25,179 nucleotides of DNA from a virus: positions 1-25,179 of IMG/VR virus record IMGVR_UViG_3300024999_001501; one strand, given 5' to 3'. How positions within the stretch are numbered: the stretch's first letter is position 1; each line of letters begins with the position of its first letter. Shown here one piece after another: positions 1 through 18,381 of this stretch. Both the position numbers and the translations under genes were made by a program. The notes below the pieces were generated by a model that saw only the letters and a list, made by a program, of their open reading frames with translations, had not been told where the DNA came from and searched no databases.

Positions 1-10
1 CCTAAACACC

Positions 11-285
11 ATAACCACTACGAGTAATTACGAGTGGTTATAGAACAACCTTACTCTCGCAACGGTTTGAGGGTAATTTAACACCATAACCACTATTTTT
101 GAAAAGGGTAACTATATATTTTTGACTTAAGACTAAATAGTAAAATTGATATAAACTCATTCTCTATAGAAGGGTATATATAGTGGTTATAGTGGTTATA
201 GTGGTTATCTAACTAAATTAAGTCAGTCATACCAAGGGTTTCAGGCTTTAGGTACCATAACCACTCCATAACCACCATAACCACT
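11..285. repeat. Iteron-like 9-bp repeats, candidate origin
   Basis: The gene-free stretch 1-321 contains ATAACCACT at 11-19, 86-94, 257-265 and 277-285, a one-base variant at 268-276, and the complement AGTGGTTAT at 33-41, 182-190, 191-199 and 200-208. The three complement copies at 182-208 are exactly tandem. They face the three forward copies at 257-285, so the two blocks could pair as arms of a hairpin with a 48-nt loop. Copies 11-19 and 33-41 form a smaller inverted pair. The ground between 95 and 181 is AT-rich. The array lies just past the stop codon of the primase-helicase gene. Iterons next to an AT-rich stretch and a replication initiator are typical of theta-type origins of plasmids and phages. 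The repeats are certain; the origin role is inferred. Confidence 0.85.
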
Positions 286-321
286 ACATCAAAAAACTTA
301 TGATCAAACATAACTAAATAG

Positions 322-8544: not shown

Positions 8545-8681
8545 GGTTTCTTGCCCCCAATCTCAATCCATCGACAGTCCCCCGTATAGACATACTTGCA
8601 TGTATCCCTATCAAGACAAGTCCCGCATACGCAGGCTAGGCCTTTACATGTTCGACAACTACATCTCGCTGTTGCGCTCAT
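8541..8681 (-). CDS. 46-aa cysteine-rich microprotein
   Basis: A hidden gene in the gap between SbcDC and DUF5131. It reads from an ATG that overlaps the SbcDC stop (ATGA) to a TGA that overlaps the DUF5131 TTG start (TTGA), so it fills the gap exactly. The 46 codons contain eight cysteines (C7, C9, C12, C17, C19, C22, C28, C36), with two C-x-C-x2-C groups in a row: CSCRTC and CVCGTC. That density suggests zinc or iron-sulfur binding. I do not recognise the family. Since DUF5131 itself has a putative cluster site, the microprotein could serve it, but this is only inferred from coupling. Confidence 0.75.
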   Translation of the reverse strand: MSATARCSCRTCKGLACVCGTCLDRDTCKYVYTGDCRWIEIGGKKP

Positions 8682-11600
8682 ACTATCCTCACCTTACTCC
8701 CCTCATCCCCCATATCCACAACTTCAATCTGCTGAGGAAACCTCGCCTTCATTGCTGGATCATGAGATATCGCGATAACTCGCATATTCGGGTACCTAAC
8801 ATTTAATTGCTCAAGTGCATCACAATACGCCTCAGTACCTTCGGCATCTAAGAACGGGGGCTCATCCACAAACATCATCCCCAGCTGTATACCCACTCTC
8901 CTCGCCTTGAGATCAGCCAACGCAAACGCATTAGCTAGTGCAGCCTTAACTTTCTGTCCTCCGGAACGATCTTTATAAGGGATATTTCCCCTCCAATCCG
9001 TGATCCACACCTCGAGTGCGTTGACTTCTTTTTTATTCCTTTGGACTCGTTCAGTCCGCATTTCCAAGGCCATTTTTCCACCCGTCATTTGGCCTAGAAT
9101 CTCGTTAGATGTTGCTGACAGTTCCGGCACCACTGAGCGCACGATTGAGAACGGGATTCCGTCGAGGCCGAATGCCTTGGTGAGAGTTTGGTAATTCACG
9201 AGCGACTTCGCTGTCGGCTCCATGTCATTGGCGAGCTGTCGGCGCTCATCCTCATCCTTGGCAAGGGCCTGAAGCTGTGCGGTTAGTGCTCCGATCTTGG
9301 CATGCAAGTCGTTTTGTTGACCATGAAGTGTCTTAAGATCCTCAAGTAATCCACCTGCACTGATTTCTGCCGCAAGCAACCTAGGCGCATCGACACTGCA
9401 TAGATCGAACTCCTTCTCCAGCACTTCAACCTGGGTCTCCTTGACCTGAATATCCGCCTCAATACCACCTATGATTTCAGCCGTAGACAGAACGATCTGT
9501 CGAGCCGCTGGGAGCTCGTCCTTAGCGTTAACCCATTGCAGGAGCTTCTGGAGGCGTTTGTTGAGCTCAGGCAAAACTTCTAGCTCAGCATTGAGCGCCT
9601 TGCCTTGTTCATTGATATTATTTATTTGAATTTGCAGCTCGTCTCGACGTTTTACGCAATCTGACACCTGTTCCTTGAGTCCCTTGAGTAGTTCGGTCCT
9701 TGAATCTAACTGTCCGGCTAGTTCAGCTTTGGGCCTGAGAGCGTTCACCGAGTTGGTGAGATCGTAATGTATACCTCTGTCGTATCCGATAGCCTTATGT
9801 TCAGCATCCAGATCTTGAACTATCTTAACTAGCGGCACCCTAGCCTCTTTTAAATCTTCAATTTCCTGTTCGATCATTTTCTTTTCTTGCTCAGCAGCTG
9901 GTAACTGAGACTTCGCCATTTGAGCGTCTGCAAGGAAGGCGCATTTTGCATTCTCGGGATCAACACAATTCGCGTTTGCAAGCATTGCCGATTTTCTGAC
10001 TAACTCCTCGATCTTAGATACCTTTTCTCTGAGTGATACTTCCTTGGAATAAATGAATTCTGCGGTTTTATCGGTATCTTTTTCGGCCACTCTTATGCGG
10101 TCGAGTACCTCTGCTGATTTTTTCGCAAGAGCCTCCATTTCGGAGAGCTTAATAATCTCCACTTTGTATTGCTCTGCCGCGATATCCAACTCCGGTTTAC
10201 TTGCTAAAACTTTCTCCAGCTCGCTTATCTGAGGTTCGAGTTTTAAGAGTTGAGTATCCACGGCCGCCATATCAACTGATAACCTCGTGTGATCATTCCT
10301 AAGCTCCGGCACCTTCGCCTGTTTAGTTTGAAGCACTAAGACCTGATCCTTAACAGTCTCATACTCCGCAGCCTTCGCCAGAATCGTCGATTCATTATCG
10401 AGCATCTTTGATGCTCGATCTGCCTTCTGCTTCCTAGTTCCAATATCAACCCTCTTGGCGAATATATCATCTGTGATAACTTTAATTTGCACTCTCAGAT
10501 CCTCGGCCTTCTCCGCTTTACTCTTCAGTGTCCGCACGAGTTCTTCGGCTGCCTTGATCTCTGATTCCTTGGTTTCCATATCCAGCTTGACTAGATTAAG
10601 ATCTGTCTCGGCTTCGGATAGCTCAACTACTAACCGGATTTTATCCTTTAACTTCTCCTCAAGATCCGCCAGCTTCGCCTTCGACACCGTCAACGATTTA
10701 TTCAACTCCGTAACCTTCGCCTTGGCCAAATCCGTTAATTGTTCGTAAATACTTAACCCGAGGATATTTGCTAACACGCCCATGCGCTGCTCCTTGTCCG
10801 CCTCCATAAATAACCCATAAGCATCCTGCATAATCAAGGCCGTACACCTGAACGTGGCGCAATCCATGCCAAGTAAGGACTCGATCTTCTCCTGTGTTTG
10901 CTTGGCTGTGGTACCGGATCGATCTTCCCACTTATCACTGTCTGATAGATACTCCTGTAATGCCAAGGTAATCTTCCCGCTACCTTTGATGCTCCTGTTC
11001 CGGATCACTCGCCAGTTCGTTGCACCCATCGAGAACTCAAAGTTAAGCATTCCGTCTGTCTGTCCGTTCGTGATCCACGATCCTGTTACCCCGGTGCGGG
11101 TTTCCTCGTAGAGACAATCTGAGATAGAGTCCATGAAAAATGCTGACTTGCCGATACCATTAGGACCGTTAACCGTAGCAAAGTAGATGTCTTGGAAGTT
11201 GAACGTTTCCTGTTGATAGGACCGATAGTTCCTGACCTCCAGAGATCGTGGTTCGAATACACCTGAGAGAGTTCCGGTAGGCATCTTTGCGCTGATTGTG
11301 GCTATCATCGGACGCGCGAGTTCTAGTATCTGAATTATCTCGTCGTTTACAAATCCTTCAGCTACAAGCCATGCATACAGGTTTTCGAGTGGACCAGAGG
11401 TTTCGGTTAGCTCTTGCTTGACTAGGTCTGTAGTAATCTTCTCTGGCTTGATCTCGGCAAGGTGAAAGGCTCCTGCAGTGTAGAGGGCTTTTTCTAGGGC
11501 TTTGCGATTCAGTTGTTTGTTTAGTTCGTCGGAGCAGGAGTAATGGACGCGAATAATTACGTCTTCGACATAATCTGGACTCATAGGCCATGTACCATTA

Positions 11601-12511
11601 ACAAAATCCTGTATATCTACGTCATTCCATCGAGTTGTCCAAAACTTGCGATATGGCGTCTTAACAAACTCCGACCCCACATAGCTCGGCATCTCGGAAT
11701 ACTCATCGCCTTCGACCGTCCCAATCTCGTGCATCCAAAACCCCTTGTCCTGACCTTCCTCATTAAATGTGATCCCATTTACTGGCCCCGAGTAAAACAC
11801 TGGTTTCTCGATACCCTCGACTCTCTGAGCCCTGTGAATATGACCTAATGCCACCAGGTCGAACGCGGATCCCGCTAGTGCCTCTTTTGGTAAAACAACC
11901 TCAGACTGAGTGAATACGTGCTGGCCATTATCAAGTTCGCATCCTACGACCGTGTAATGGGCCATGAGCACGCTGGGGATCGTAGGATCTAACTGAGCGC
12001 TTAGGCCATTGACCATGTCGCCGAGGTATTTGGAGCACATCATAGATTCTTCAGCTGGTGCCATGCCCGGGAACTTGGCGCGGAAGTAGCCTTTGTCGAA
12101 ACCGGGGAGACAGGCAATCTGTAATGGTTCTCCTGACCCCGTAAATATGGTAAATAGTTCAGGATTAGTTACGACTTTAAGTCCTGGAATATTCATTGTC
12201 CTAATGTTCTCAAACGCCTTAAGGCTATCGTGGTTATCTGTCCCAAACATCAGAACTGTTGTCGCGATTCTTCCAAGTGCCACTAATCGTTGAACTACTT
12301 CATCGATAAGTGAAAGCATGTTGTCGCCCCAAAGTTTAGACTTATCGAAGATGTCACCAGATATCAGAATCGCGTCTGGTCGTTCTCTCTGAGCGTATTC
12401 GACAAGGTAATCAGCACATCTCAATGTATCTTTTAATCGTGCGTTCTTTCCTTCGATCACTGGCCCGGGCAACTCACCTATGTGCCAATCTGCACTATGG
12501 AGTATTAGCAT
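8678..12511 (-). CDS. SbcD-SbcC (Mre11-Rad50) single-chain fusion
   Basis: A 1277-aa fusion of nuclease and ATPase that normally are two proteins. Numbering from the ATG at 12511: residues 1-400 are a calcineurin-like phosphoesterase (D8-x-H10, GDIFD 52-56, TDNHD 91-95, H185, GHIH 223-226). From about 422 an SbcC/Rad50 ATPase follows, with Walker A GPNGIGKS 449-456, Q-loop Gln near 562, long coiled coils around a two-Cys apex (C849, C857), signature SGGQ 1183-1186, Walker B MMFVDEP near 1212-1218 and H-loop ISHD 1248-1251. All catalytic groups look intact. It would trim DNA ends or hairpins during element replication. The frame is open to 12595, but ATG 12511 has a perfect AGGAGGTG site. It overlaps the previous gene by 7 bp. 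The ATPase half is shorter than typical SbcC. Confidence 0.92.
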   Translation of the reverse strand: MLILHSADWHIGELPGPVIEGKNARLKDTLRCADYLVEYAQRERPDAILISGDIFDKSKLWGDNMLSLIDEVVQRLVALGRIATTVLMFGTDNHDSLKAFENIRTMNIPGLKVVTNPELFTIFTGSGEPLQIACLPGFDKGYFRAKFPGMAPAEESMMCSKYLGDMVNGLSAQLDPTIPSVLMAHYTVVGCELDNGQHVFTQSEVVLPKEALAGSAFDLVALGHIHRAQRVEGIEKPVFYSGPVNGITFNEEGQDKGFWMHEIGTVEGDEYSEMPSYVGSEFVKTPYRKFWTTRWNDVDIQDFVNGTWPMSPDYVEDVIIRVHYSCSDELNKQLNRKALEKALYTAGAFHLAEIKPEKITTDLVKQELTETSGPLENLYAWLVAEGFVNDEIIQILELARPMIATISAKMPTGTLSGVFEPRSLEVRNYRSYQQETFNFQDIYFATVNGPNGIGKSAFFMDSISDCLYEETRTGVTGSWITNGQTDGMLNFEFSMGATNWRVIRNRSIKGSGKITLALQEYLSDSDKWEDRSGTTAKQTQEKIESLLGMDCATFRCTALIMQDAYGLFMEADKEQRMGVLANILGLSIYEQLTDLAKAKVTELNKSLTVSKAKLADLEEKLKDKIRLVVELSEAETDLNLVKLDMETKESEIKAAEELVRTLKSKAEKAEDLRVQIKVITDDIFAKRVDIGTRKQKADRASKMLDNESTILAKAAEYETVKDQVLVLQTKQAKVPELRNDHTRLSVDMAAVDTQLLKLEPQISELEKVLASKPELDIAAEQYKVEIIKLSEMEALAKKSAEVLDRIRVAEKDTDKTAEFIYSKEVSLREKVSKIEELVRKSAMLANANCVDPENAKCAFLADAQMAKSQLPAAEQEKKMIEQEIEDLKEARVPLVKIVQDLDAEHKAIGYDRGIHYDLTNSVNALRPKAELAGQLDSRTELLKGLKEQVSDCVKRRDELQIQINNINEQGKALNAELEVLPELNKRLQKLLQWVNAKDELPAARQIVLSTAEIIGGIEADIQVKETQVEVLEKEFDLCSVDAPRLLAAEISAGGLLEDLKTLHGQQNDLHAKIGALTAQLQALAKDEDERRQLANDMEPTAKSLVNYQTLTKAFGLDGIPFSIVRSVVPELSATSNEILGQMTGGKMALEMRTERVQRNKKEVNALEVWITDWRGNIPYKDRSGGQKVKAALANAFALADLKARRVGIQLGMMFVDEPPFLDAEGTEAYCDALEQLNVRYPNMRVIAISHDPAMKARFPQQIEVVDMGDEGSKVRIV

Positions 12512-13392
12512 CCTTGTCCACCTCCTGAACATGTCGAGCAAATAACGCGACCATGCTTCTTGCGAAGACTCTCGACAATCATCTCCACTGTCCACTCTCC
12601 GACCGGCTCAATCACTAACCCACATAACTCGCAGCAATGAGCACTGCTCGGTCCCTCATCATCAACGACCACAACCTCGCCATTAATGCCCCCCGAGATC
12701 TGCAGACAATCACCTCCGGCTAACTGGTGACTACTCGATACACCTCCGCCAAATAATGCATCCTGACCAGCTGCGTATCTCTGGATAAGTGCCTTCTTCA
12801 TTTCGGGGTCTTGCGTATTTAGCACCACTAAGGCCACGGCGAATGGTTTAGCTAGTTCATTGAGCGTATAACCACCCTTGAGACCCAACCCTGCGCGTAA
12901 CGCTCTTAGTAGTGCCTTGGTCTCGCAGTTAGCTCCCATGTGTTCTACGGGATTTTTTTTGGCTAAGGTATCCTGCTTGGAAACTTCCTTCGTCGCGGTA
13001 TACTTTCTGTACCCACCGCTTGGCTCAGGCACAAGTATGGACACCTGATAGGCAACATCTTCTTTTGTTGGACATCCTGCACACTGAGGAGCAAGGCGAG
13101 TTGCCTTCGCAATCTCAACACACCTTTGACAATTTTTGGGGAGTATAGATCTTGACTCATCCATAACCACGTTAGCAGCCGTCATGAGCTTGAGGCATCC
13201 GATTTTAGTTAATGAAAACTCACCATTTTTTTGCTTATAGATATCCTTAGCCAAGATATCCGTGTCGATCTGAACGATATTAACCATGATTTTATGCAGC
13301 GGAGATATCTCCGTCATTGTTGCGGGAAAGAGTCGATTATATGTTTCGACTGGATAATTATTGATTGATGAAATCGTTAATGCGTTATTCAA
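12505..13392 (-). CDS. Candidate annealing/recombination protein with Zn clusters
   Basis: A 295-aa protein I recognise only loosely, as a phage family found in recombination operons. Residues 60-78 (SLTKIGCLKLMTAANVV) precede a four-Cys knot (C88, C91, C104, C107). Then comes a beta-rich stretch and CETKALLRALRAGLGLKGGYTLNELAKPF (start 156), whose TKA...RALR helix recalls RecT/Rad52-like annealing proteins. A second Cys set (C253/C254, C257, C285, C288) lies at the C-terminus. The start is TTG with GAGGAGG 9 nt upstream, inside the end of the HTH gene. Direct overlap with SbcDC suggests an exonuclease-annealase pair like SbcCD or lambda Exo with Beta; the function is inferred, not shown. Confidence 0.55.
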   Translation of the reverse strand: MNNALTISSINNYPVETYNRLFPATMTEISPLHKIMVNIVQIDTDILAKDIYKQKNGEFSLTKIGCLKLMTAANVVMDESRSILPKNCQRCVEIAKATRLAPQCAGCPTKEDVAYQVSILVPEPSGGYRKYTATKEVSKQDTLAKKNPVEHMGANCETKALLRALRAGLGLKGGYTLNELAKPFAVALVVLNTQDPEMKKALIQRYAAGQDALFGGGVSSSHQLAGGDCLQISGGINGEVVVVDDEGPSSAHCCELCGLVIEPVGEWTVEMIVESLRKKHGRVICSTCSGGGQGC

Positions 13393-14266: not shown

Positions 14267-14680
14267 TCATAGCTTCGGCCTATGTTCGCAATTCGTAACG
14301 CTGTGCTTGCCCTCACACTTGTGGAGGCAGTGATATAATGTTGTCGGCAATAAGATATGGCAAGTGCCAAGATTGCCGCACAAAAAACAATCGCACTTCA
14401 AGCACCCCAGGTCATCATGTGGCATATCAACCAGTGATTCCACTTTCGAGACATCTATGCTACACTTAGGTTGTATAGTTTCCTTTGGGGCTCCTTGTGG
14501 CGAGGAGTCCTTTTTCATGTTCCAGGCTTGATTTAAGCCCTGTAGGGTCTGTGCAATTCCAACAACCTTCTCTTCGGCTGTGGTGTGTATTTCGCCCATG
14601 ATTTCCTCGATGATTCCGATGGCGTTCGTGTTCATTTGGGCTTTGGTTTCTAGGTCGATGAACCATCCTGATCTATCCAT
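14267..14680 (-). CDS. Cys-rich C-terminal zinc protein, unknown
   Basis: A 137-aa protein. The first 60 residues contain an amphipathic helical stretch (ETKAQMNTNAIGIIEEIMGE). The last 45 hold a dense Cys/His cluster (CLKCDCFLCGNLGTCH, then HCLHKCEGKH and a final Cys-Glu-His), likely two zinc sites. The frame is open further to 14731, but the ATG at 14680 has an AAGGAGG site about 8 nt upstream, while the upstream ATG lies inside the methyltransferase gene and has none. Function unknown; it sits between DNA methyltransferase-like and DNA-binding genes. Confidence 0.65.
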   Translation of the reverse strand: MDRSGWFIDLETKAQMNTNAIGIIEEIMGEIHTTAEEKVVGIAQTLQGLNQAWNMKKDSSPQGAPKETIQPKCSIDVSKVESLVDMPHDDLGCLKCDCFLCGNLGTCHILLPTTLYHCLHKCEGKHSVTNCEHRPKL

Positions 14681-14699
14681 TAGTTGCCTCCTTGTAAAT

Positions 14700-15320
14700 T
14701 TATTGGTTAGCCTTAAAAAAAGCTTGGGCAAATCCTTGGGGAGTAATACTGCGTCTTACTTGGCGCTTGTCTAGCCCGCATCCTGGGTTGTATTCATAAC
14801 CTTGTGGTAATTCTGGCAAATCATTTAATAGGGTTTTGTCGAACTTTCCTGCCGTACACTTAATTGGTGTTTTAGTTGGAATATTAAAATTCCCCCATAT
14901 ATGCGTTCTCTTTTTGTAGTTGTCACCGTAGTCTGCAGGTGTAAATTCTAGCGGCGGATTGCCAAGAAAGTATTTCAGGAAACCTCTCGGATTTTCTAGG
15001 GCCCAAAATTTAAGAGAAGTTACTTTTGCGTATTCGCTCACTAGTGAGTATTGTTGTTGCCAAATTATCTCCAGGCAACGCTTAACTAATTTCATGGACT
15101 GCTCCAGGTTGCGCGGGTTCTTAGCGTTGGTTCGGCAAAGACTAAAGTGTGTGCATGTTGGCGCTGCGAGTATGCCATATACCCCCCCAGGAGGCTCATA
15201 TGTGAATACATCGTGCTCCGGCAATGTTATCAACCTAACGTCATAACCAGCGTCTTTGTACGGTTTGCTCCAACTTCCAGTACCTCCACAAAGGTCGAGG
15301 ATTATCTTGTCTCCGTTCAC
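14700..15320 (-). CDS. C5 cytosine-methyltransferase-like protein
   Basis: A 206-aa short, phage-type DNA cytosine methyltransferase-like protein. It shows the S-adenosylmethionine motif LDLCGGTGSWS (8-18), AAPTCTHFS (52-60) at the place of the catalytic Pro-Cys loop, ENP at 109-111, and a final ITPQGFAQAFFKAN that matches the closing motif of the family. Cys56 is kept but the preceding residue is Thr55, with Pro one place earlier, so the canonical PC dipeptide is missing. The target-recognition region is very short, as in other phage members. The GTG start overlaps the TGA of the 39-aa gene (GTGA). Likely role: methylating element DNA against host restriction; activity is uncertain. Confidence 0.75.
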   Translation of the reverse strand: MNGDKIILDLCGGTGSWSKPYKDAGYDVRLITLPEHDVFTYEPPGGVYGILAAPTCTHFSLCRTNAKNPRNLEQSMKLVKRCLEIIWQQQYSLVSEYAKVTSLKFWALENPRGFLKYFLGNPPLEFTPADYGDNYKKRTHIWGNFNIPTKTPIKCTAGKFDKTLLNDLPELPQGYEYNPGCGLDKRQVRRSITPQGFAQAFFKANQ

Positions 15321-15341
15321 GCCCCCAACCCCCTAACTTCC
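15317..15341. repeat. 25-bp direct repeat, copy 1
   Basis: A perfect 25-bp match to 15433-15457, 116 bp apart start to start; it begins TCACGCCCCCAACCCCCTAA on the plus strand. On the coding strand it encodes the last seven residues EVRGLGA, the TGA stop of the 39-aa gene and the overlapping GTG start of the methyltransferase. Confidence 0.98.
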
Positions 15342-15436
15342 TTTTCGCATATTAATTCATGCTCACACGCTACAATGTAAACTGCGAACACCATTCCACA
15401 CGCTTTACATTTGTAAACTTCAATTGTTTCCCTCAC
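15317..15436 (-). CDS. 39-aa zinc-knuckle microprotein
   Basis: A hidden small gene from GTG 15436 to TGA 15317, exactly bridging the DUF6906 and methyltransferase genes through GTGA overlaps at both ends. The 39 codons read RETIEVYKCKACGMVFAV from residue 2 and later have Cys24 and Cys30, giving a C10-x2-C13...C24-x5-C30 pattern that suits one zinc ion. The C-terminal seven residues, EVRGLGA, are identical to the end of the preceding protein because the 25-bp DNA repeat covers both ends. The zinc role is inferred; the protein family is not recognised. Confidence 0.7.
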   Translation of the reverse strand: MRETIEVYKCKACGMVFAVYIVACEHELICEKEVRGLGA

Positions 15437-15457
15437 GCCCCCAACCCCCTAACTTCC
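15433..15457. repeat. 25-bp direct repeat, copy 2
   Basis: Identical to 15317-15341. Here it encodes the EVRGLGA tail and stop of the DUF6906 protein plus the GTG start of the 39-aa gene. Together the two copies frame a 116-bp unit. Confidence 0.98.
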
Positions 15458-15582
15458 CCACTAACCCGATGTATAACCCGAAAACACCCGGGAACATCTC
15501 TTTCGACGAGCCAGTTCTTTGGTGCTGGCAATGACTTCATTTTGTCCTTCTGCGCCCGAGTAGGTTTACGACCATGTTTCAC
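15433..15582 (-). CDS. DUF6906-like small phage protein
   Basis: A 49-aa protein starting with GTG at 15582, overlapping the TGA of the helicase-methyltransferase gene (GTGA). The sequence MKHGRKPTRAQKDKMKSL, then PKNWLVERD and FRVIHRVSGEVR, matches what I know of the DUF6906 family of small phage and ICE proteins (M-K-x-G-x-x-PTR-x-QK...NWLV...IVHR-x-SG). The function of the family is unknown. The usual LN before PKNWLV is PA here. Its last seven residues and stop lie in the 25-bp repeat and may have been rewritten by that duplication. Confidence 0.75.
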   Translation of the reverse strand: MKHGRKPTRAQKDKMKSLPAPKNWLVERDVPGCFRVIHRVSGEVRGLGA

Positions 15583-17846
15583 TTCAAGTCACCCCCTATA
15601 TCAAATATCGTTAAGTTCACCATCCCATCTGGTAGAATATTAACCGCTGGAGCATCATCCTTTTTCTTTCCTCTCGCCGGTTTAATATCGGGGTCAAACG
15701 AATCGAAAACGGTTAACGACCCTTCCTTGTCTGCCATTTCTTCAACTGCGGCCCTCAAATTCCCAATAGATTGATCAAAATAACTAGGCTTTAACTCGAT
15801 ACCCTTGTATTGGCGGCCCATCTTTAACGCCACATACCCGCTGGAACCTATGCCATTGAAGGGGTCCAACACAGTATCACCAACGTTTGTCCATAACTCC
15901 AAGCCTCTCTGAATAACTTCCAATTGTAATGGGCAAATATGTTTTTCGTCTTGCTCCACCCGAGCTGACTTGCGCTGCAATGTGTCAGATTGACGAATAT
16001 CCATCCATACCGGGCTTGCGTATCTCTGCCAAATTTCGACCGGAAACTCCTCTGGCGTGTGGCAAACTTTCTCGGGGTTTTCTCCAGGCTTTCGCATCGT
16101 AATTAGATAATCCGGCATACCTTGGCGGCACATGGAACTATCCTTTTTGATCTGCTTATGGAGAAGTCCAAGAGCTTTTGTCCTCTGCATTTCCACAACA
16201 GGGTCTTTCCAAATAACAACTTTTGAATGATAGATAAATCCTGCGTCCTGGAATAGCTTTACAAGCATACCTGGCAAGTCTTTCAGTCCGATAACCCCAT
16301 CCTTCGACTTCATCATTGGCAATTCCATGCAATGGAAACTGAGTAATCGTCCTGGAATAGTAACGCGATAAAGTTCGTCGACTAGGTATTTGAAGTGCTG
16401 CAAAAACTCATCATCGTTGCGACAATTACCCATGTCCCTATCACTATTTGAGTATGTGTATAAATTAGCAAATGGTGGCGAGAATACAGTGTAGTGGATA
16501 GAATCGCTTGGCATTTTCCTAGTCTCTTCAACGCAATCCCCTAGCCTCAATTCCCATCCCTGTCCTTCAACAACAGACGTTTCGTAGGTTGCCGTATCCC
16601 GAATAGTACTCTTGATATTTTCTTTAGTGATTTCCTGAGTCGCCGCAATCATCCCGTCTAACATTGTATTAAAATCATCCTCTTTCCTTTGAATATTGCG
16701 GACTACTGCGCCCTCCGCCTTTGCTGTGATAATGTAAACGTCAACAGGTTTGGTTTGTCCGAATCTCCAGCATCGTCTAATCGCTTGGTAGAGTTGCTCG
16801 AAGCTATCTGACAACCCCACGAACGCCATCTTAGAACAATGCTGCCAGTTCATCCCGAACCCAGCTATGGATGGTTTTGTGACAAGTTTCTGGACCATAC
16901 CATCTGTGAATCCGATCATGGATTGCTCTTTGTATTCTGGCTTGTGGCTCCCTCTGATCTCGATAGCGTCTTTAATCCCCTGGGTTAATTTTTCGCTCTC
17001 ATCATTCAAATTGCACCAGACTATCCACGGCTCGTCAGACTCATTAACGATGTCTGAGCATGCCTTTACTCGCTCATCAATACTCTCTCGCCTTGCTTGC
17101 TGCCTATCCGATAGAGTTAGTGCTTCTCCATCAAAACTGCTATTCTCAACATCTACAGAGATTTGGTGAATATTAAGTGGAGGAAGATCAAATCCATCAT
17201 CTTCATACCCTAAATTTGATGGTTTTTGCATCATTACGGCCCAATTAGCGACCCATATCCAGAATGTTTCAACAGCATGACCTTTGATTCTCCATTTGCT
17301 TGTTGAACCTCCATCATGGACAAAGAACATGGCCAACATTTCAGATCGTGTCATTACCCCTAAGAATTCGGCATGATTACATAACTCCATGTGGTCGTTT
17401 GGGGCTGGCGTAGCCGTGCAGGCTAGTTTGTATTGGGTATCCTTAAAACCTTCAATTATGGACGTTCTAACCTTACCCGTAAATGATTTCAGGATAGAAC
17501 TTTCATCCAGGGCAACACCGCCGAACTTAGATAAATCAAACTTGTGTAGAAGCTCATAGTTGGTGATATTAATACCTGGCTTTACATCGAATTGCTCTCT
17601 ACAGAGGTTTACATGGATACCGAACTTAGCTCCCTCTTTTACCGTTTGACTTGATATGGCTAATGGTGCGAGAATCAAAACGTCTAAGCCTGTAGCGACA
17701 TGTATCTGCTTACTCCATTCGAGCTGCATAATTGTTTTACCAAGCCCTGTACCTGCAAATATTGCAGCTCTTCCCTTTGCCAATGCCCATCGCACAATGT
17801 CTTTCTGGAATTGAAATAACTGTTGACTTATACCTGTATCGGCCAC
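15579..17846 (-). CDS. SNF2-like helicase fused to DNA methyltransferase
   Basis: A phage-type fusion, 755 aa from GTG 17846. The helicase half has Walker A GTGLGKT 32-38, DESS 114-117, TATP 144-147 and motif VI QAIRRCWRFGQ 354-364. The second half is an amino-methyltransferase with SPPF at 456-459 (the N4-cytosine/N6-adenine catalytic motif) and DPFNGIGSSG at 661-670 binding S-adenosylmethionine. It probably methylates element DNA while translocating. GTG 17846 has no ribosome binding site, and 20 sense codons continue upstream (EYAAFLESKKPAF...), resembling the usual N-terminus of the family, up to an ATA at 17906 that overlaps the previous TAG stop. Translation may therefore begin at 17906. 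Confidence 0.88.
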   Translation of the reverse strand: MADTGISQQLFQFQKDIVRWALAKGRAAIFAGTGLGKTIMQLEWSKQIHVATGLDVLILAPLAISSQTVKEGAKFGIHVNLCREQFDVKPGINITNYELLHKFDLSKFGGVALDESSILKSFTGKVRTSIIEGFKDTQYKLACTATPAPNDHMELCNHAEFLGVMTRSEMLAMFFVHDGGSTSKWRIKGHAVETFWIWVANWAVMMQKPSNLGYEDDGFDLPPLNIHQISVDVENSSFDGEALTLSDRQQARRESIDERVKACSDIVNESDEPWIVWCNLNDESEKLTQGIKDAIEIRGSHKPEYKEQSMIGFTDGMVQKLVTKPSIAGFGMNWQHCSKMAFVGLSDSFEQLYQAIRRCWRFGQTKPVDVYIITAKAEGAVVRNIQRKEDDFNTMLDGMIAATQEITKENIKSTIRDTATYETSVVEGQGWELRLGDCVEETRKMPSDSIHYTVFSPPFANLYTYSNSDRDMGNCRNDDEFLQHFKYLVDELYRVTIPGRLLSFHCMELPMMKSKDGVIGLKDLPGMLVKLFQDAGFIYHSKVVIWKDPVVEMQRTKALGLLHKQIKKDSSMCRQGMPDYLITMRKPGENPEKVCHTPEEFPVEIWQRYASPVWMDIRQSDTLQRKSARVEQDEKHICPLQLEVIQRGLELWTNVGDTVLDPFNGIGSSGYVALKMGRQYKGIELKPSYFDQSIGNLRAAVEEMADKEGSLTVFDSFDPDIKPARGKKKDDAPAVNILPDGMVNLTIFDIGGDLK

Positions 17847-17902
17847 ATAAATACCGCTACTTTTGAACGCTGGTTTTTTGCTTTCAAGAAATGCTGCGTA
17901 CT

Positions 17903-18148
17903 CTATTTAAATCCACCCCAATTCACACTATCGATAAACACCGGCTGCACAGCCCTCTGTCCGACCATCCTCGTATCCTGATAATCGACCACCATCTCCG
18001 ACCGAATCGTGTCGCCACTCCTCAGCATCCGCGACCAGAGTTCATGGTGCTCTCGCTTGGCTTGCTCGAGCTTGTACGCCTCGACTTCGCGACGAATCAG
18101 CTCGATTTTGAGTAGTTGCTTGCGAATGGATTTGAGTAGGTTTTTCAT
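17903..18148 (-). CDS. 81-aa helical protein, unknown
   Basis: Residues 1-45 form a strongly charged amphipathic helix (KNLLKSIRKQLLKIELIRRE), followed by a less ordered tail ending VNWGGFK. No family was recognised. The frame is open to a GTG at 18175, but ATG 18148 overlaps the TGA of the open frame before it (ATGA), as at other junctions of this operon, and is preceded by a purine-rich GGCGGGGAG. The TAG stop overlaps the presumed ATA start of the next gene. Confidence 0.6.
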   Translation of the reverse strand: MKNLLKSIRKQLLKIELIRREVEAYKLEQAKREHHELWSRMLRSGDTIRSEMVVDYQDTRMVGQRAVQPVFIDSVNWGGFK

Positions 18149-18276
18149 CTTCTCCCCGCCTTTCCTTTCCTCCACGCCATATACCGCTCGTAATGGTTCA
18201 ACTTTTTCTTTGTGAAAATCGGCGTAAATGCAATCCTAGCAACACCTAACGCCCAATACCCCTCTGGCCCCTGCTC
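18145..18276 (-). other. Open frame without a start codon, possible readthrough or broken gene
   Basis: Directly after the TGA of the 34-aa zinc gene, the same frame stays open for 43 codons (PEGYWALGVARIAFTPIF, then TKKKLNHYERYMAWRKGKA) and ends in a TGA that overlaps the next ATG. The composition looks like protein rather than chance, and the overlap at its end is of the kind used by real genes here. No ATG or GTG lies near its beginning; a TTG near the middle would give only 18 residues. It may be read through, use a rare start, or be a fragment created by a nonsense mutation. Confidence 0.4.
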
Positions 18277-18381
18277 TCACTTAGCCTTGCATTTCGGACA
18301 GCGGAATTCGGCCTTACCTGCAGGGAAGTACATGAGTTGACCGCAAATGCACGTTGGGACCATTTGCTTTGGCATCCCCAT
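18277..18381 (-). CDS. 34-aa zinc-ribbon microprotein
   Basis: A short gene with GAGGAGG 8 nt before ATG 18381. It encodes MGMPKQMVPTCICGQLMYF, then FRCPKCKAK and TGA. The C-x-C...C-x2-C pattern (C11, C13, C28, C31) fits a minimal zinc ribbon. Function unknown. Its stop is in frame with the following 43 open codons, so a 78-residue product would arise if the TGA were read through or had arisen by mutation. Confidence 0.65.
   Translation of the reverse strand: MGMPKQMVPTCICGQLMYFPAGKAEFRCPKCKAK

Follow-up and report, generated by a model that had tools for sequence, protein, structure and literature searches.

Two neighbouring gene junctions in this phage carry the same 25 letters, and the question is whether this repeat is a device by which small genes enter and leave, a regulatory motif, the trace of an insertion or the product of a single recombination event. 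The preliminary description of the locus favoured the first of these, a modular junction framing a 116-bp microgene cassette. We analysed the locus in the window, that is, the whole stretch of 25,179 bp from one IMG/VR record, and compared it with 2.9 million viral contigs.

The repeated junction and the gene between its copies

On the minus strand, four genes lie head to tail, and every successive overlap consists of the same four letters, GTGA (Table 1). The sequence GGAAGTTAGGGGGTTGGGGGCGTGA forms both the junction between the DUF6906 gene and the 39-aa gene and the junction between the 39-aa gene and the methyltransferase gene. The two copies are direct, perfect over 25 bp and 116 bp apart from start to start. 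Both read GAA GTT AGG GGG TTG GGG GCG TGA on the minus strand, which encodes EVRGLGA and a stop, and the next GTG overlaps the TGA by 4 nt. The results confirmed what had been described for 15317-15457, namely the perfect repeat, the tail with its overlapping stop and start, and the arithmetic by which loss of one period would remove 116 bp and leave the DUF6906 TGA joined to the methyltransferase GTG. Allowing for as many as 3 mismatches, we found no third copy anywhere in the 25,179 bp of the record, and such a 25-bp repeat appeared in none of 100 dinucleotide shuffles of the record. The same arrangement was present with zero differences in the separately assembled contig IMGVR 3300025011_000283, indicating that an assembly artefact is unlikely.

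Table 1. Features of the coupled gene run and of the two repeat copies, in window coordinates
Feature	Position	Strand	Basis
SNF2-type helicase + N6/N4 DNA methylase fusion, 755 aa	15579..17846	-	ORF; Pfam N6_N4_Mtase 3.2e-17, Helicase_C 3.9e-6
Helicase/methylase as first gene of the coupled run, ending GTGA into DUF6906			4-nt overlap
DUF6906 gene, 49 aa, assigned native owner of the EVRGLGA tail	15433..15582	-	Pfam PF21847 E 2.6e-15; family alignment
Repeat copy 1: DUF6906 3' end, ribosome-binding site and GTG start of the 39-aa gene	15433..15457	-
Ribosome-binding site of copy 1, AGGGGGT, with 7-nt spacer and GTG at 15434-15436	15444-15450	-	Predicted anti-Shine-Dalgarno duplex, -12.1 kcal/mol
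39-aa small gene, weakly zinc-ribbon-like (CxxCG ... CEH), with putatively borrowed EVRGLGA tail	15317..15436	-	ORF; profile match; codon score
Unique 91 bp between the repeat copies; no diverged DUF6906 end	15342..15432	-	Local alignment no better than shuffles
Repeat copy 2: putative secondary DUF6906 3' end, ribosome-binding site at 15328-15334 and methyltransferase GTG start	15317..15341	-
Phage DNA methyltransferase, 206 aa	14700..15320	-	PHROG 757 DNA methyltransferase 6.1e-29
Backbone gene, 154 aa, common to the allelic relatives; putative recombination edge near 14427-14484	14267..14731	-

The 39-aa reading frame starts inside copy 1 and takes its final 7 codons from copy 2, and the part that is its own is 91 bp long. 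We scored this unique part against codon usage in the large genes of the phage. It reached +5.5 bits in the annotated frame, compared with a median of 6.7 for in-frame windows of the large genes and a 95th percentile of 1.2 for off-frame windows. Because the score lies near the in-frame median and above the off-frame 95th percentile, the 39-aa gene is probably real. The earlier account of a complete zinc-type gene between the copies was thus borne out for the coding frame, and the zinc label, judged from profile matches to DUF7128 (25.3 bits, cut-off 25.7) and desulfoferrodoxin-N (E 0.008), is plausible but weak. No homologue of the protein was matched in phages or plasmids. DNA patterns derived from the peptide recovered the sister contig and one unconvincing match among the viral contigs, and a comparison with 398 genomes gave weak zinc-ribbon or chance matches and nothing better. 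The 39-aa cassette was also considered as a diverged tandem copy of DUF6906, which was ruled out because its alignment to DUF6906 scored like shuffles.

The DUF6906 end as coding sequence and ribosome-binding site

To assign the shared tail, we aligned 11 members of the DUF6906 family encoded on viral contigs or in bacterial genomes. The arginine of EVRGLGA (Arg45) was one of ten invariant residues, and because this invariant arginine lies within the tail, the tail was assigned to DUF6906. The 25-bp stretch is thus the 3' end native to DUF6906, and the copy that ends the 39-aa gene is a secondary one. The C-termini of the family follow the pattern SG[EK]xR[TGK]L..., with the variants KVRTLKGA, KARTIRRGA and EARRLGA, and DUF6906 relatives carry the same nucleotide design at the gene end (cggaggtgctgggcATGA, cggcggggagcATGATG and aaggaggttgggggcGTGA). 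We found no mention of DUF6906 in the literature searched.

The next start overlapped the DUF6906 stop in 42 of 73 non-redundant viral loci, and the genes that follow DUF6906 fell into 24 sequence families across 80 loci. Since embedded overlapping starts are common in the family and the next genes are varied, the DUF6906 end commonly serves as the ribosome-binding site for the following gene. Both repeat copies were predicted to pair with the anti-Shine-Dalgarno sequence in the same way, at -12.1 kcal/mol and with a spacer of 7 nt, and the canonical AAGGAGGT in the relative 3300024999_000502 gave a pairing of -13.0. The family comparison and the predicted pairing together show that the 25-bp stretch has two roles, providing C-terminal codons and, embedded in these, the Shine-Dalgarno/start region of the next gene.

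Alternatively, a protein or RNA could bind the repeat as a regulatory element akin to start-associated sequences, which would place several genes under common control. It covers the ribosome-binding site and the start codon, as do the start-associated sequences of Cluster K mycobacteriophages (PMC3203893), and its G-rich GGGGGTTGGGGG core might conceivably form a fold or a binding target. Such a motif is nevertheless very unlikely here: there are two copies in 25 kb and no others even with 3 mismatches, the records of the relatives hold one copy or none, and the DUF6906 codons together with Shine-Dalgarno pairing already explain the sequence.

Relatives of the locus and the origin of the second copy

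The duplicated junction was limited to the window phage and the near-identical contig 3300025011_000283, which is identical to window 14485-18320 and carries the same repeat and the same 39-aa gene. At window 14427-14484, the 100% identity with this contig gives way to scattered differences and then to no match, a pattern suggesting that a recent recombination had its edge here, within the 154-aa gene.

Two further contigs, 3300024999_000502 and 3300024999_000199, proved to be allelic, sharing DUF6906 and, to either side of the locus, the 90-aa and 154-aa genes. After DUF6906, both carry an 83-aa gene and an HNH endonuclease (201 aa, PHROG 1891, 1.7e-72), and the tail is single in both. In 3300024999_000502, the DUF6906 island (15433-15587) retains 93% identity between two replaced, unrelated flanking blocks, and its similarity is bounded exactly by the start-codon region and GTGA. 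The two allelic relatives differ from the window through replacement of both flanking blocks, not through a loss of 116 bp. As aligned, these alleles show that different genes have been joined to the DUF6906 end at precisely this point.

We also looked at the junction from the side of the methyltransferase, which has 63 viral relatives. In the 14 upstream regions inspected, the upstream genes were unrelated, the ribosome-binding sites were the relatives' own and the EVRGLGA tail was absent. Local repeats (within 1 kb) were found at 0 of 72 other DUF6906 junctions. A pattern scan of all viral contigs placed the repeat core in these phages; its only three other occurrences (L069, L071 and L073) lie within unrelated reading frames and were rejected as chance matches. 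Among the 2.9 million viral contigs, no allele joined DUF6906 directly to this methyltransferase, had another gene between two repeat copies or carried extra repeats. An immediate ancestor with DUF6906 coupled to the 39-aa gene but lacking the methyltransferase was likewise not found.

We then asked whether junction duplication is general. A first set comprised 142 loci (677 kb), most of them connected by the methyltransferase or by DUF6906, in which neighbouring gene-start pairs were compared with more distant pairs of the same loci for at least 12 identical letters in register. The results showed such matches in 6 of 1,032 neighbouring pairs versus 2 of 3,589 distant pairs (p = 0.002; p = 0.008 without the window), exact matches at gene starts being inflated by the common Shine-Dalgarno and start motif. 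In an independent set of 59 new stretches (1.16 Mb), the same criteria gave 0 of 1,233 neighbouring pairs, and the enrichment was therefore treated as not replicated. In L025 (1827-2024), L021 (681-985), L085 (5220-5504) and L035 (about 1594-1785), identical stretches of ribosome-binding site and start, 15-18 bp long, frame small genes that are not paralogues. If duplicated junctions drove small-gene turnover, this would help to explain the many tiny unrelated genes of phages. The instances would be the 25-bp repeat here and the shorter examples in those four loci, and we think it very unlikely that some phages gain and lose microgenes in this manner, with initiation regions acting as scarless recombination sites.

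A modular cassette device, in which identical junction copies let small genes enter or leave by recombination while translational coupling is kept, would account for the exact geometry of the locus, where loss of one period equals 116 bp and a coupled junction remains. A 116-bp deletion by slippage or annealing would be possible in principle, and the framed small genes in several unrelated phages and the first-set enrichment also speak for such a device. Against it stand the failure of that enrichment in the independent set, the single junctions at all 72 other DUF6906 loci, the lack of any cassette-free or alternative-cassette allele in the viral contigs, and the sole other carrier, which is identical across the whole region. 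A dedicated device is accordingly quite improbable. The preliminary description had suggested looking for related elements with no cassette, other cassettes or more repeats, and our search of the 2.9 million contigs returned none of these; the repeat is absent in every relative but one nearly identical copy, which is largely the outcome that the description itself had taken to indicate a chance local duplication. What stands of its modular junction is a complete coupling junction, with ribosome-binding site and stop/start overlap, at which different genes (39-aa versus 83-aa) are joined exactly; the cassette mechanism does not.

Insertion of the 39-aa gene with a 25-bp target-site duplication, for example by copying repair of a break made by a homing endonuclease, would also leave a direct repeat on both sides of the insert, and an HNH endonuclease does adjoin the allelic locus in the relatives. 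The insert, however, has no terminal inverted repeats and no mobility gene. The second copy lies in frame with the 39-aa gene and supplies its last codons, which a simple duplication need not do, and 25 bp is long for a transposon target duplication. These points make an insertion of this kind unlikely.

We consider it likely that the DUF6906 end with its ribosome-binding site was fused onto the 39-aa gene by recombination as a one-off event, that is, by gene-boundary mosaicism and not by a dedicated cassette system. In an ancestor of the window phage and its near-identical relative, a single recombination between copies of phage DNA, through short homology or illegitimate, would have linked the end of DUF6906 with the 3' end of the 39-aa gene. 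The exchange may have run through the shared motif GGAAG at the repeat's 5' edge and through TGA at the start codons, both motifs being short enough to occur by chance. An Erf-like annealing protein that the phage itself encodes may have assisted, and the product would have been retained since the copied end supplies the downstream methyltransferase with a functional ribosome-binding site and with coupling through GTGA.

The window phage encodes an Erf-like protein (PHROG 155 E 8e-6, weak but consistent), an SSB (2.5e-29) and SbcCD. Machinery of this kind enables phages to recombine stretches that are short and diverged: their Rad52-like recombinases are reported to work on such stretches, with frequent exchange of small fragments, and the minimum given for Red-beta is about 30 bp (PMC3945230). 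The 25-bp repeat is slightly under this minimum. The finding is real and ordinary in kind, and it is a neat example, a clean case of how a phage couples a newly joined small gene, in which the 3' end of one gene serves as the ribosome-binding site of the next and can be copied with its function intact. As a separate observation, SbcD-like and SbcC-like parts are fused in one 1,305-aa reading frame at window 8678-12595.

Other repeats observed and comparison with known systems

Repeats of other kinds were observed in the loci examined. In L015, L014, L016, L022 and L023, TAAACCTTTACTTATATGAAA is found repeatedly at gene starts, always in the same orientation, with 2-6 copies per contig. It sometimes spans the stop of the upstream gene as well as the start of the downstream one, and has the appearance of a start-associated sequence in phages that are unrelated. 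In L015, two perfect 27-bp copies of TAAACCTTTACTTATATGAAA (1164-1190 and 1494-1520) frame a 105-aa gene. In L060, a repeat of 21-26 bp, ATATTGTATAGAGTGAAAATATTGTG, precedes each of several consecutive small genes and the methyltransferase relative (2392-2417, 2578-2603 and 2943-2968), with a further partial copy near 251, and is possibly a shared promoter or operator. Window 1-290 holds four copies of a 19-bp TAAACACCATAACCACTAC-like repeat and three tandem TATAGTGGTTAT units with a TAAACACCATAACCACTAC-like core in the opposite orientation; these repeats, beside the gene for a DUF927 protein, could be iterons or operator sites.

The start-associated sequence of Cluster K mycobacteriophages is 13 bp long, has many copies per genome and 93 sites in total, and is conserved between phages (PMC3203893). 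It resembles the repeat described here in being a short repeat with a Shine-Dalgarno core over the start codon, sometimes with the upstream stop codon included. Its defining feature is the spread of copies over many starts throughout the genome, whereas the window has two copies confined to one lineage. The T4-type mobile regulatory cassettes or PeSLs (Arbiol 2010 and Comeau 2014, cited in PMC4503421) are promoter-terminator stem-loop units that lie between genes in many copies. They share with this locus the general idea that repeated junction elements let small genes shuffle; the repeat in the window, in contrast, consists of a coding end and a ribosome-binding site, in two copies. A recombination cassette with exchangeable content would have alleles with no cassette or another cassette between the same repeats, and none were found in the viral contigs.

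As in the gene-boundary mosaicism of temperate phages, blocks at this locus are exchanged at gene edges, and an island of near-identity lies between replaced blocks. An Erf-like annealing recombinase encoded by the phage itself is a further likeness to this mosaicism, in which Rad52-like recombinases carry out relaxed recombination (PMC3945230). Homology edges coincide with gene edges, as seen in the DUF6906 island with its unrelated flanks, and the same locus is occupied by the 83-aa gene and HNH endonuclease in the relatives versus the 39-aa gene and methyltransferase here. Phage genomes usually lack repeats (PMC3945230), and unlike in usual mosaicism, the edge sequence is here duplicated within the same genome as a perfect 25-bp direct repeat.
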